Shown: piece by piece, positions 2,924 through 7,943 of the stretch
How the letters are laid out: the number at the start of each line of letters is the position of its first letter
How positions within the stretch are numbered: position 1 is the first letter of the stretch
NCBI GenBank assembly: GCA_025774615.1
Contig: JALGVQ010000133.1
Coordinates: 1-7,943, forward strand
Length of the DNA: 7,943 nucleotides
DNA from: a bacterium
GTDB lineage: Bacteria; Blakebacterota; Blakebacteria; Blakebacterales; Blakebacteraceae
Direction of reading: 5' to 3'
Program-made: the position numbers and the translations under genes
Notes under the pieces: generated by a model
Databases searched by the model: none
What the model saw: only the letters and a program-made list of their open reading frames with translations
Told to the model about the DNA's origin: nothing

Positions 2924-5164
2924 CTACTCTCCTGATGTCAACGGATCGAGCCTGGCCGCTCTGAGAGCAGGCAGAAATGTAGCGATCGTCGCGACCATGA
3001 ATAACAGGATCGTGACACTCGCCAGGGTGACGGGATCGGTGGAAGCTACACCATAGAGCTGGCTCATGAGCAGGCGAGACAGACCGAGAGAACCGAGCAG
3101 GCCCACCACTATACCTGCTGTGGCCAGAACAAGACCATTCTTGAGAACCATCGAAGTGAGTTGCAGGCCGGTTGCGCCAAAGGCCAGCCGTACTCCGAGT
3201 TCGGCAGTACGCTCATTGACCATCTGTGACGTCACTCCATAGATACCGAGTGAGGCCAGCATGATCGCCAGACCGGCGAACATGACCAGGATGAACGTGG
3301 TGGTCTTCCTGTCACCGATCGATTCGGCGATCATCTCCTTCATTAACCCGAATCCGGAGACCGGCTGATCTCCTTCGGGGAAGTATCCTTCGATGCCGAA
3401 GCCGGCGGTCGACCACCTTCCTCCGAAGGGGAGCACGTTGGTGGTGCTGGCGGCCTCCACGCCAGGCAAAGCTTCGAGATGAGGGAGGAGTTCATGGTAG
3501 AAAGCCTGTTGCGATCCACTGTCGGGATATTTCACTTCGGGGAGGGAAATGTTGGCAGTGAGGATATTCTCGCTTTCGAATCCCGGATCGACCTTCTGCA
3601 GTCCGGCCATCGTCTGTATCAGCAGGCCCGCTCCGGTCAGCAGGGCCAGGGAGATCGCGAACTCTCCTGCCACCAGCACCTTTCTCAGTGATCTGCCGCT
3701 ACGGTCGGTGTGGGAACGATTCCCGCTTACTCGCAGGGTGCTCTGAATATCAGTTCTGGAAATCTGGAGGGCCGGGATCAGGCCGAACAGGACCCCGACC
3801 AGAAGTGAAACCATCAGGGTGTAAAGCAGTACGGGTAGATCGATAGTGATCCCCGCGCTGTCGAATCCGGGGGGACCGAGCGCGACCACCGCGCGTATCC
3901 CCAGCCCGGCCAGCATCAATCCCAGCAGACCCCCGGTGCCTGACAGGACGACGCTCTCGGTAAGCAATTGCTGAAGAATCTGTCTCCGACTGGCTCCGAG
4001 AGCTCCCCGGATGGCGATCTCCTTACGTCGACCGATCGCTCGTGCCAACAGAAGGTTGGCGACGTTGGCACAGGTGATGAGTAGAATAAGGCCGACCGCT
4101 CCGGCCAGAATGAAGAGAGAGGTCCGGTATTCCTGCTTGGCCCGTTCGTCAAGCGAAGTGACCTTCAGCGTCCAGTCTTCAGGGAAGTTGTCAGATAACG
4201 TTTCCTTGAGACCCTCCGCCATGGCGACCAGTTCCTCATGAACCGTCTCGATCGACACTCCTTCTTCGACCCGTGCTATCTGGTATAGCCATTCACTCAG
4301 GTATCCCTGGCTGTCGACCTGCTCGGCGGTGAGGGCCAATGGAGTCCATATTTCCCGTTCCGGTTGGATGATATCCTCGAATCCGGCTGGCATCAGTCCA
4401 ACGATGGTGTACGTATCGCTGTTGAGTTGCAGTTCCCTGTTGATGACATCAGGGACTCCACCCAGCCGGCGTTTCCAGAATCCGTCACTGATGATCACGA
4501 CCTGGTTGTTACCTGGTGTCTCCTCATCAGGTGTGAAGTACCGTCCCTCGGCCAGTGTGAGTCCGAAGGTCTCCAGATAACCACTGGTCACCCGGCTGGC
4601 TGTGATCCGCGCAGGTATTCCTTCGCCGGTGTGGTTGACTGCCCAGCTGGCCGAGATCCCGGTCTGTTCGAAATACGATATGTTGTCACGATAATTCCGG
4701 AATCCCTCGATCGAGACAGGAGCCAGCATCTGCTTTGAGGGGTAGTGATGGTTAATGGTCACCAGGCGATCGGGAGCCGGGTAGGGCAGGGGACGGAGCA
4801 GCATGGTATTGACAATGCTGAAGATTACTGTTGTTACACCGATCCCCAGGGCAAGGGTTCCAGATGTGGATAGAATTAATCCAGGTTTCTTCAACAGCAT
4901 TCGAACAGCATGGCGGCTGTCTTGCACGAGGGAGTCCAGGACAGCTCCGATCCTCTTCTGGCGGACCTTTTCCGCTACCTGTTCGACACCGCCGAATTCA
5001 AGCAGAGCCTCACGACGCGCCTCTTTCTCATTCATACCCTGCCTGATTTTGATGTCAATAACCAGGTTCAGGTAGCTCTGGAGTTCGTCATCCAGGTTCT
5101 GGTCCAGTTCACGTTTCCTGAACAAGGTGCAGAACAGACTTTTGGCGGGTTTATAGCCAGGCAT
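2924..5164 (-). CDS. ADOP-type ABC transporter permease lacking most of its second extracytoplasmic domain
   Basis: The product is 746 residues. Residues 15-80 form the cytoplasmic permease prefix domain typical of ADOP proteins (RELDQNLDDELQSYL, GMNEKEARREALLEFGGVEQV). Helix 1 is about 96-120. The first MacB-type extracytoplasmic domain spans about 121-347. The first FtsX block has helices near 348-372, 399-425 and 443-466, with the coupling loop RRKEIAIRGALGASRRQ between the first two. The second half begins with a helix near 493-515 and continues with helices near 621-643, 672-696 and 709-733. Between 515 and 621 only about 105 residues remain; the sibling permease at 6125 has about 238 in the same place. 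Aligning flanking motifs puts the loss at P601 (D599-Q-P-V), removing about 135 residues in frame. The tail DPLTSGE also departs from the usual DPxxALRxE. All eight helices remain, so a membrane protein could still fold, but function without the domain is uncertain. The ATG at 5164 has GAGGAG 7 bases upstream. No ATPase domain or Walker A motif is present. It is probably co-transcribed with the hydrolase. Confidence 0.92.
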   Translation of the reverse strand: MPGYKPAKSLFCTLFRKRELDQNLDDELQSYLNLVIDIKIRQGMNEKEARREALLEFGGVEQVAEKVRQKRIGAVLDSLVQDSRHAVRMLLKKPGLILSTSGTLALGIGVTTVIFSIVNTMLLRPLPYPAPDRLVTINHHYPSKQMLAPVSIEGFRNYRDNISYFEQTGISASWAVNHTGEGIPARITASRVTSGYLETFGLTLAEGRYFTPDEETPGNNQVVIISDGFWKRRLGGVPDVINRELQLNSDTYTIVGLMPAGFEDIIQPEREIWTPLALTAEQVDSQGYLSEWLYQIARVEEGVSIETVHEELVAMAEGLKETLSDNFPEDWTLKVTSLDERAKQEYRTSLFILAGAVGLILLITCANVANLLLARAIGRRKEIAIRGALGASRRQILQQLLTESVVLSGTGGLLGLMLAGLGIRAVVALGPPGFDSAGITIDLPVLLYTLMVSLLVGVLFGLIPALQISRTDIQSTLRVSGNRSHTDRSGRSLRKVLVAGEFAISLALLTGAGLLIQTMAGLQKVDPGFESENILTANISLPEVKYPDSGSQQAFYHELLPHLEALPGVEAASTTNVLPFGGRWSTAGFGIEGYFPEGDQPVSGFGLMKEMIAESIGDRKTTTFILVMFAGLAIMLASLGIYGVTSQMVNERTAELGVRLAFGATGLQLTSMVLKNGLVLATAGIVVGLLGSLGLSRLLMSQLYGVASTDPVTLASVTILLFMVATIATFLPALRAARLDPLTSGE
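2929..2933 (-). promoter_or_regulatory. Ribosome binding site of the serine hydrolase, inside the upstream coding region
   Basis: AGGAG on the minus strand lies 9 bases before the ATG at 2919. It falls within the final codons (ACA TCA GGA GAG TAG) of the preceding permease, so ribosomes finishing the permease terminate right on the start region of the hydrolase. This fixes the hydrolase start. Confidence 0.75.
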
Positions 5165-5281: not shown

Positions 5282-5719
5282 TCAGACTTCTCGCATGGTC
5301 CAGGCAAGGATGGATGCCGGAAGAGAATGAGCGAAGTACAGGAGAGAAGACGCCAGGAGAACATCGATGAACACGAGATCTGTGAAATCAAGGAAAAGGA
5401 CCTGGGCGAATAGAACAGCCAGACAGATGACGGCAAAAATACCGTATGCGTACCTGAGGGCGACGAAGACGTTCTGGAGTTCGCGTTCATCCATGGAGTC
5501 AGGTCTGCTGTGCACGAGCTTCCACAATCCGGTCCGGACCTGGACGATGACAAAGCTGATGGCAACCATTGAAATGAACAGCACCAGACTTAACAGGCGA
5601 AAAAGGTCATCCACCTCAAGCCGGGGAAGTGCGTTCCAGAAGATGAGCAGAAGAAACAGACTGCAGTAGTTTACGATTACCCAGCTCCGCCGCTGTGATC
5701 TTGACTCTCTAATTGTCAT
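5282..5719 (-). CDS. Small four-helix membrane protein partnered with the XRE regulator
   Basis: The product is 145 residues and I cannot name its family with certainty. Hydrophobic segments lie near residues 13-30, 41-61, 89-110 and 115-133, with basic residues at the N-terminus (RESRSQRR). A charged loop between helices 2 and 3 contains SMDERELQNVF (about 75-85). Small membrane proteins of this size, with a DERE-type loop, are often encoded beside short XRE regulators, and this matches that pattern. It would act in the inner membrane, perhaps controlling or sensing for the regulator, but that is inference. The reading frame extends upstream to an ATG at 5761. I prefer the ATG at 5719 because it has GGGAG 8 bases upstream and begins 1 base after the regulator's TGA stop, the usual geometry of translational coupling. 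Confidence 0.8.
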   Translation of the reverse strand: MTIRESRSQRRSWVIVNYCSLFLLLIFWNALPRLEVDDLFRLLSLVLFISMVAISFVIVQVRTGLWKLVHSRPDSMDERELQNVFVALRYAYGIFAVICLAVLFAQVLFLDFTDLVFIDVLLASSLLYFAHSLPASILAWTMREV

Positions 5720-5720
5720 T

Positions 5721-5981
5721 TCAGACACTCCCGGCATTTTTCGACCCGTACAGTTCTTCACTCAGGGGCTTTAATGGATTCGGCGAAAAGATGACTTCGA
5801 TAGGTAATCCGAAACACTCACTGATCCTGAAAGCCAGATCCAGGCTGGGGTTGTACTCCCCCCGTTCCAGATACCCGACGGTTTGATAGTTCACGTTGAT
5901 CTTTTCGGCCAGTTCGTTGCGTGAAAAGCCTCGCTCCTCCCGCAGAACGGCTATTCTGTTGTAGATTTTTCGAGGTTTCAT
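5721..5981 (-). CDS. XRE-family helix-turn-helix transcriptional regulator
   Basis: The product is 86 residues from the chosen ATG. The N-terminus MKPRKIYNRIAVLREERGFS leads into a Cro/C1-type DNA-binding domain. The HTH is SRNELAEKI, a turn NVN, then the recognition helix YQTVGYLERG, followed by the family-typical EYNPSLDLAFRISECFGLPIEVIF. A short tail, NPLKPLSEELYGSKNAGSV, follows with no sensor domain. Short XRE proteins of this kind are DNA-binding repressors or switches, often acting with a membrane partner, here the next gene. A longer version starting at the ATG at 5999 would add MLYIYN. I chose 5981 because relatives usually begin about here and because the extra residues would be encoded by the palindromic operator. 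Neither ATG has a Shine-Dalgarno site, so a leaderless or near-leaderless transcript is possible. It probably represses its own operon. Confidence 0.88.
   Translation of the reverse strand: MKPRKIYNRIAVLREERGFSRNELAEKINVNYQTVGYLERGEYNPSLDLAFRISECFGLPIEVIFSPNPLKPLSEELYGSKNAGSV
5728..5732 (-). promoter_or_regulatory. Ribosome binding site deciding the membrane-protein start
   Basis: GGGAG on the minus strand lies 8 bases before the ATG at 5719, inside the last codons of the regulator gene. It favours the 145-residue product over the 159-residue one starting at 5761. Confidence 0.6.
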
Positions 5982-5999
5982 GTTGTATATGTACAACAT
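5980..5999. promoter_or_regulatory. Palindromic probable operator of the XRE regulator
   Basis: ATGTTGTATATGTACAACAT consists of two perfect 8-base inverted arms (5980-5987 and 5992-5999) around a 4-base centre. Its size and symmetry suit a dimeric XRE protein, and it lies at the 5' edge of that protein's own gene, covering the ATG at 5999 and reaching that at 5981. Binding here would block transcription start, which suggests autoregulation. Occupancy by this regulator is inferred. Confidence 0.6.
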
Positions 6000-6016
6000 T
6001 GAGTACTACATGTCAA
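5988..6016 (-). promoter_or_regulatory. Candidate promoter of the regulator operon
   Basis: A perfect -35 hexamer TTGACA (6016-6011) is followed by a 17-base spacer and TACATA (5993-5988), a poor 3 of 6 match to the -10 consensus. Initiation 6-7 bases downstream would fall at about 5981, on the preferred start codon, giving a leaderless mRNA. The -10 lies inside the palindrome, as expected for a repressor-controlled promoter. A competing reading uses a perfect TATAAT at 6024-6019 with a weak -35 (ATTATA, 6047-6042), which would give a leader of about 13 bases before the ATG at 5999. Confidence 0.45.
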
Positions 6017-6020
6017 GTAT

Positions 6021-6035
6021 TATATATGATATATA
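6021..6035. repeat. AT-only inverted repeat upstream of the regulator promoter
   Basis: TATATAT-G-ATATATA is a perfect inverted repeat with 7-base arms and a single central base, in a stretch (about 6017-6060) made almost entirely of A and T. It may be a second protein-binding site, an easily melted or curved promoter region, or simple low-complexity sequence. It overlaps the TATAAT hexamer at 6024-6019 (minus strand). Confidence 0.4.
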
Positions 6036-6066
6036 GCACTATATAATATTGTTATCTATCGAAAAT

Positions 6067-6124: not shown

Positions 6125-7943
6125 CTACTCGTCGCGAAGTGCACTCAACGGATCCTGGCGGGAAACCCGTAACGCTGGCAGGTAATTGGCCAGTAGAGCC
6201 ACCAGCACCAGCAGAATGGTCATACCGATAATCGGGATCGGTTCGAAAGCGGTGACACCGAACATAGTTGAGGCGAGTCCTACCCCCATCCCGATAGCGC
6301 CGAACAATCCGAGCAGCATCCCGATCCCAACCAGTAGCATTCCCTGTCTGATAATCAGTGTGATCACACGTGACGGGACGGCTCCGAGCGCGATCCTTAT
6401 CCCCATCTCGCGAGTTCGTTCGGTGACTGAGTACGACATGACACCGTACACGCCCAACATTGCCAGGATGAGTGCGAGGATTGCAAAAACGCTCAGCAGT
6501 CTGGTGAAGCTCAGTTCCGCCCACGTGGATTCGGCAACGATATTTTCCAGGGGGCGGAGTTCGCCAAGTGGTAAAGTTGAATCGAGCGCCCAGATCGTTT
6601 CCCGTACGGCTGGGATCAGGGCATGAGGATCTGTGAGTGTCTTCATCACGATCCACATTTCACCAAATCCTCGATTGGCGTACGGGATGTAAAATCCTTC
6701 CCGAATATTGCGGTCGAGACCATGGTGACGGACGCCACCCACGACCCCCACGATCTCCATTGGAGTTGCTCCTTGTTCGATTCGGCCAAGTGCTATCTTC
6801 TTGCCGATCGGATTGGTATCAGGCCAGTATTTCTCTGCCACGGCTTGATTGATAATGACGACATCTCCGCCTGCCAGATTCTCCAACTCATTGAACAGCC
6901 GTCCCTGAATGAGCGGGATCTCCATCGTCTCAAAATAGTGACCGTATGCCAGGCGGATATTTCCCGGCGGGAGTGGTTTGGAAGGATCGACCGGGAACTC
7001 CTCGACCGAATAGCTGTCGCCCCAGGTCAATCCCAGCATCGGAAGGATAAAAACTGCCCCAGCTGAAGCAATACCCGGAACTGCTTCCAGGTTTGCAATA
7101 GCTTGACGGTAGAATAGTGCACGCTGAACCTCATCAGGATACTGAATCCCGGGAAGATCGAGATGCACAACCAGCGCATTTTGTGGTGTGAAACCGGGGC
7201 TAACCGCCTGCAATCGTTGATATCCCTGGATTAATAATCCGGCACCCACCAGAAGCGTAAGTGACACGGCTACCTCGCCTATTATAAGGATGTTCCTGAG
7301 TCTGTGTCGCGATCTACCAGCACTCCGTGCTCCACCCTCCTTCAATATCCCGGTCAGATCAGTCCTACGCATCTGGAAGGCCGGTGCCATCCCGAATATC
7401 AGACTGGTGAGGATGGAGACCAGGAAGAGGACGAGAATGACGAAACCATCAATGGTGACATCCATCCAGATCGGAATGGCCATTGGAATGGATGTAAGTG
7501 TGAGGTCGAGACCTATCTTCCCTAACAAGAGCCCCAGCATTCCACCACAGAGTCCGAGGAGCAGGCTTTCGGTCAGAAGCTGGCGCAGCAGCCTTACTCC
7601 GCCAGCCCCAAGTGCCCGTCTGATAGCTATCTCGCGGGCTCTTCCCGTGGCCCGTGCAAGTAGCAGATTGGCGACATTGGCGCAGGCTACCAGCAATACA
7701 AACACTCCCGCCGCCAGGAGGATTAGGAACGTTGACCGGAAGCCATCCCTGACGAATTCTGTCAGGAACTCCATCCGGATTCCGTGATCGTTGAAAAACT
7801 CAGGATAAGTTTCCCGGAGTCCCTGAATTATCCCTTCGAAATCCTCAAGCGCCTGGTCAAGAGAAACGCCATCCTTCAGGCGACCGATCGCCTGTAGGCT
7901 GTGCTCGCCCCTGTCCTCCAACCCAAAGTATCGACTCATTGGT
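6125..7943 (-). CDS. ADOP/MacB-type ABC transporter permease (5' end outside window)
   Basis: The frame runs through the right edge (a CCA codon precedes the first in-window ATG at 7939), so that ATG is probably internal. The N-terminal prefix domain, first helix and most of the first extracytoplasmic domain are missing from view. From the ATG at 7939, 604 residues are visible. They are the end of the first extracytoplasmic domain, an FtsX block (helices near 70-94, 121-145 and 163-187) with the coupling loop GRAREIAIRRALGAGGVR, and a second-half helix near 216-238. A complete second extracytoplasmic domain spans about 239-476 and includes YGHYFETMEIPLIQGR, EKYWPDTNPIGKKI and MEIVGVVGGVRHHGL. 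The final FtsX block follows (helices near 477-500, 529-553 and 570-591; loop TEMGIRIALG-like, REMGIRIALGAV), ending in the canonical DPLSALRDE. It is the intact comparator for the middle permease. No ATPase adjoins it. Substrate unknown. Confidence 0.92.
   Translation of the reverse strand, partial: PMSRYFGLEDRGEHSLQAIGRLKDGVSLDQALEDFEGIIQGLRETYPEFFNDHGIRMEFLTEFVRDGFRSTFLILLAAGVFVLLVACANVANLLLARATGRAREIAIRRALGAGGVRLLRQLLTESLLLGLCGGMLGLLLGKIGLDLTLTSIPMAIPIWMDVTIDGFVILVLFLVSILTSLIFGMAPAFQMRRTDLTGILKEGGARSAGRSRHRLRNILIIGEVAVSLTLLVGAGLLIQGYQRLQAVSPGFTPQNALVVHLDLPGIQYPDEVQRALFYRQAIANLEAVPGIASAGAVFILPMLGLTWGDSYSVEEFPVDPSKPLPPGNIRLAYGHYFETMEIPLIQGRLFNELENLAGGDVVIINQAVAEKYWPDTNPIGKKIALGRIEQGATPMEIVGVVGGVRHHGLDRNIREGFYIPYANRGFGEMWIVMKTLTDPHALIPAVRETIWALDSTLPLGELRPLENIVAESTWAELSFTRLLSVFAILALILAMLGVYGVMSYSVTERTREMGIRIALGAVPSRVITLIIRQGMLLVGIGMLLGLFGAIGMGVGLASTMFGVTAFEPIPIIGMTILLVLVALLANYLPALRVSRQDPLSALRDE

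Follow-up and report, generated by a model that had tools for sequence, protein, structure and literature searches.

A member of the ADOP permease family, encoded on the minus strand at 2924–5164 of the window (the whole stretch of 7,943 nucleotides of DNA analysed here), has lost 393 nt in frame from the region coding for its second periplasmic domain, and the two flanks of the lost segment meet at a 7-bp sequence, GATCAGC, that intact copies of the gene carry twice. Our preferred interpretation, held with moderate confidence, is that a redundant paralogue in a recombining family underwent a private and probably recent deletion at a microhomology, and that the gene is most likely at an early stage of decay.

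The permease and its family

The permease gene is a single open reading frame of 746 codons, in frame throughout and free of stops and frameshifts, and its 746-aa product matches TIGR03434 in two stretches with 691.8 bits, above the curated whole-protein cut-off of 622.3 bits, in agreement with the ADOP identity proposed in the initial annotation. Domain searches give two FtsX stretches and one MacB_PCD stretch. The latter corresponds to an intact first periplasmic domain (residues 102–313, 4226–4861, minus strand; Pfam PF12704, 1.3e-24), and the first FtsX domain lies at residues 356–472 (3749–4099, minus strand; Pfam PF02687). Eight hydrophobic segments, counted from hydrophobicity with split peaks merged, account for all eight helices, and both flanks of the lost segment align with intact relatives, so that the earlier claim of a preserved frame and helix set holds. 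Of the features that define an ADOP, the duplicated FtsX unit and the eight helices are present, whereas a periplasmic domain in each half is not, the second one being truncated; by descent the permease is an ADOP, but its architecture is incomplete.

Within the window, a sibling ADOP at 6125–7942 (minus strand; TIGR03434, 654 bits) runs off the contig with its second domain intact and serves as an internal reference. Since Pfam likewise recognizes just one MacB_PCD stretch in the visible part of this sibling, the deletion is invisible to Pfam alone and an alignment is needed to see it. Neighbours to which Pfam gives a name on this short contig include, besides other ADOPs, a serine hydrolase and an HTH protein; no ATPase gene was found in the window, either in the list of open reading frames or with Pfam.

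The deletion and its junction

The window is contig C192 of G000, a fragmented MAG in 324 contigs that is 82% complete. The close relatives of the permease are two intact paralogues from the same genome, C49 and C141, and two copies from a same-genus genome (G001), C433 and C229, the C433 contig being also listed as JALGWK010000155.1 of MAG Meg22_46_Bin_213. The retained parts of the gene share 77–87% nucleotide identity with these four, and for the two paralogues of the same genome values of 83–89% were obtained; each of the four aligns as two blocks separated by a segment absent from the permease. In the DNA alignments this segment measures exactly 393 nt, or 131 codons, against C49 and C433, and 408 nt against C141 and C229. 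An in-frame loss of about 135 residues had been described initially; the loss and its frame stand, while its size is corrected to exactly 131 aa against the nearest relatives. The join falls at D599-Q600 (window 3364–3370), within the interval 3330–3410 originally assigned to it, and the motifs YF..M.IPL..GR, WP..NPIGKK and VGVVG.VR, reported as missing, are indeed present in the sibling and absent here.

Between the alignment columns of residues 597 and 601, the permease has 3 residues, in comparison with 134–152 in all of 16 other ADOP frames taken from two genomes, its own and the same-genus one. Because every close relative has the domain, the deletion is derived. For the same reason, the view that this subfamily never had the domain is ruled out.

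The scar of the deletion (3364–3370, minus strand; codons 599–601) was located by DNA alignment with C49, C433, C141 and C229. The C49 copy has GAAGGA-GATCAGC-TGAACCCC in its upstream flank and GACAGC-GATCAGC-CGGTCTCC in its downstream flank, while the junction in the permease reads GAAGGA-GATCAGC-CGGTCTCC; GATCAGC is therefore a direct repeat that intact copies carry on either side of the segment. Of 2106 offsets at a spacing of 393 nt in the intact C433 or C49 gene, 8 show microhomology of at least 7 bp, all of them equivalent placements of the GATCAGC repeat, and no second direct repeat of at least 7 bp exists at this spacing in either copy. The earlier suggestion that the deletion joined short similar sequences is in this way borne out at the DNA level, and replication slippage or microhomology-mediated joining would be the natural explanation for a junction placed on such a repeat.

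The same junction could in principle mark a point of unequal exchange at GATCAGC between two paralogues instead of an internal deletion. Paralogues of this family do exchange sequence, as different segments of the gene favour different trees and its N-terminus is of other origin (see below), but the sequences to the left (codons 521–599) and to the right (codons 601–744) of the junction share the same best grouping, with modest support (dlnL 3.5–6.4 over the alternatives), and we consider such an exchange highly improbable.

A further possibility is that 393 bp were left out, or two paralogues fused, during assembly of the metagenome. The fragmentation and incompleteness of the MAG, the existence of several paralogues and the overlap of a paralogue contig, C49, with the end of the window at 97.9%, with differences, would all be compatible with an error of this kind. 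A 7-bp repeat is, however, far shorter than any ordinarily used assembly k-mer and would not be expected to make an assembly graph collapse, and the sequence on both sides of the junction is about 10% or more away from every known copy; for these two reasons an assembly error is unlikely. The flanking segments moreover favour the same grouping, and the reading frame is kept. That the gene was lifted from C49, C141 or C433 by misassembly is likewise unlikely, given the about 10% or more divergence on either side of the junction.

Consequences for the second periplasmic domain

The periplasmic domain of MacB consists of a Porter subdomain, made of two beta-alpha-beta motifs, that flanks a contiguous Sabre subdomain (PMC5985334). 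The deletion corresponds to residues 601–731 of the intact relative, whose second half aligns to MacB (5lil) from Sabre to the end. According to this alignment, to the secondary structure of the model of the intact relative and to the published domain limits (PMC5985334), the deletion removed nearly all of Sabre together with the strand and helix (beta-alpha) of the second Porter motif. What is left upstream is the first Porter beta-alpha-beta motif and a Sabre stub (residues 526–600, 3365–3589, minus strand; delimited by the MacB alignment of the intact relative and the secondary structure of its model), and downstream the last Porter strand, the stalk helix and TM6–TM8 (residues 601–745, 2930–3364, minus strand; delimited by alignment with intact relatives and hydrophobicity).

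A clean excision of Sabre leaving an FtsX-like, Porter-only domain is ruled out once the deletion is placed, as above, on MacB and on the model of the intact relative: a complete Porter fold without Sabre is not what remains, since the beta-alpha part of the second Porter motif is also gone. Because the cut neither takes the arm off cleanly nor leaves Porter without Sabre, the remnant is unlikely to fold like the rest of the family. The initial picture of a permease with one periplasmic domain is accordingly right in that most of the second domain is lost, but too clean, as half of a Porter fold and a Sabre stub persist.

AlphaFold models, built from six-sequence alignments, were used solely for the secondary structure of the intact second domain, the mean pLDDT of both the deleted protein (42.7) and the intact relative (49.4) being poor and unfit for a comparison of folds. 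At equal alignment depth, pLDDT is about 31–53 in the remnant and mostly 55–88 in the second domain of the intact relative, a contrast that agrees weakly with a misfolding remnant. Compared with MacB structures (5lil, 5gko, 5nik), the first domain and the transmembrane part of the permease align to them, whereas the second half of the deleted protein matches no MacB chain, just a YtrF match to TM6–7 being left.

Mosaic origin and genomic context

Over nucleotides 1 to about 340–365, the gene is about 45–50% identical to its close relatives, and beyond this point 80% or more. The corresponding N-terminal part (4800–5164, minus strand), which comprises permease prefix domain 1 and TM1 and was delimited with NF038403, an identity scan and a search of the own genome, comes from a different ADOP lineage, and the permease is a mosaic in a sequence-exchanging family. 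The break falls at the conserved LLRPLPYPAPDRLV stretch, and the nearest match of the N-terminus in its own genome reaches only about 40% at the protein level. In comparison with the ADOPs of C49 and C433, with which it shares the TIGR03434 family, 80–89% identity in the retained parts, eight helices, two FtsX domains and an intact first periplasmic domain, the permease thus differs in three respects: it lacks 131 aa of the second domain, it lacks a C-terminal LR pair (see below), and its N-terminal 113–120 codons derive from a different, prefix-domain-bearing ADOP lineage.

The ADOP family is large in G000, a MAG of 3.3 Mb in which 79 stretches match the permease and close copies exchange sequence. 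Within its positions 1–1080, C49 overlaps the right end of the window (7426–7943) at 97.9%, with 11 differences in 518. At the point where the contig of the window stops, the copy of the sibling ADOP on C49 is frameshifted by a short deletion (..TVIGVMPAGYQ, after which PMSRYFG.. lies in a different frame), so that strain variants or copies of the sibling are breaking as well. An HTH cassette at 5624–6042 of the window is 94.5% identical to positions 6147–6565 of C433 in G001. It directly follows an intact ADOP in C433 and is preceded by the sibling ADOP in the window, so that ADOP genes have been gained or lost at this spot.

Selection and other marks on the gene

The ratio of differences at codon positions 1+2 to those at position 3 is 0.58–0.63 between the permease and its two nearest relatives, against 0.54–0.59 in intact pairs. 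In a codon model, omega on the branch of the permease is 0.253, nominally higher than the background of 0.138 (2dlnL 5.1), an estimate with additional error because it was obtained from one tree though gene segments favour different trees. For the branch taken as a whole, an omega of 1 can be rejected (dlnL 11.4). If a final share of the branch is allowed to be neutral, the best fit is 10%, with an upper limit of about 30%, and zero is not rejected (1 log unit worse). The branch as a whole is under purifying selection, the estimate pooling the time before and after the deletion, and the omega data fit a recent deletion in a gene that is now drifting as well as they fit a deletion in a gene on which selection still acts.

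A second, small in-frame loss of 6 nt is found near the C-terminus (DNA and protein alignments; the codons at 2930–2935, minus strand, with the missing bases between 2932 and 2933), where relatives read DPLTSLRGE and the permease DPLTSGE. The first residue of the missing pair (L or I) is present in 16/16 other ADOP frames, and LR itself in the closest relatives. At family-conserved columns, the permease has 4 changes of its own and the intact copies have 3–5.

Search for further cases

Orthologues with the same junction were found in none of the genomes searched. In 4 genomes of the own phylum there is no homologue sharing it. In 193 genomes of another ADOP-rich phylum, a junction-spanning query of 213 aa had 3 matches that exceeded the threshold, none of which extends past the part preceding the junction. 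A spliced family profile gave hundreds of matches in 195 genomes of that phylum, and among the best-scoring ones listed none crosses the junction (at about profile position 122), all starting at position 81 or later in open frames that are mostly of full-length size. In this search the best 13 candidates per genome were scored, among which a protein without the domain should rank first, scoring across the whole profile. Viral contigs hold no relative of the permease. In the literature, the phrase “duplicated orphan permease” occurred just in an unrelated taxonomic paper, and nothing useful on ADOPs was retrieved. Judging from all sequences searched, the deletion is private to this permease.

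Decay or an asymmetric permease

The interpretation that we favour proceeds as follows. A member of a recombining ADOP paralogue family lost 393 bp between two 7-bp GATCAGC repeats, by a cut passing through the Porter fold and taking most of Sabre. With a second periplasmic domain that presumably no longer folds or docks a partner, the protein would probably still insert in the membrane, its normal function being lost. The near relatives C49 and C141 in the same genome could make this loss tolerable, and the gene would be in an early stage of decay, so far free of frameshifts. The exact 393-nt loss at a 7-bp microhomology, the two intact paralogues in the same genome and the cut through Sabre and Porter speak, at the sequence level, for decay as the probable course. 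We also count in its favour the LR loss, the nominally raised branch omega, the best-fit neutral share and the failure to find a homologue with the same junction in the genomes searched. Counted against it are the 746 codons without stop or frameshift, position ratios like those of intact pairs, the rejection of omega = 1, the permitted zero neutral share and a number of changes at conserved columns within the range of intact copies; weighing both sides, we still regard decay as the likelier outcome.

Alternatively, the deleted ADOP may still work, with one complete and one reduced periplasmic domain, in the manner of one-domain fused permeases. This seems to us improbable. In its favour, the frame, the stalk helix and all eight helices are kept, selection is purifying overall with a zero neutral share allowed, and a precedent exists in the one-domain fused type VII permeases (PMC5985334). 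On the other hand, the cut leaves half of a Porter fold where a domain cleanly removed or trimmed would be expected, the pLDDT of the remnant is lower than that of the intact domain (a weak argument, both models being poor), no second example was found in the genomes searched, and the C-terminal LR pair has been lost as well. Slightly less probable again is the stronger form, that a single deletion at a microhomology removed one arm and left the protein working, an evolutionary move in the direction of the one-domain fused type VII permeases. BceB has a single large extracytoplasmic domain, ten helices and a partner ATPase, BceA. In the published description, a single large extracytoplasmic domain is typical of BceB-type fused permeases, and YbbP has two (PMC5985334). 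With the BceB type, the permease shares two permease units per chain and one full domain, a likeness of described architecture; it differs in having eight helices, with no ATPase gene in the window, and in the state of its second domain, which a probably recent deletion has cut short and which is not missing as part of the design.

There are many ADOPs, and most of them have hardly been studied; a natural one-arm deletion in such a fused, MacB-like protein would put to the test whether mechanotransmission depends on both arms. As the deletion concerns one gene in one MAG and gives no sign of spread, its main value lies in providing a clean example of a microhomology deletion in a recombining paralogue family.
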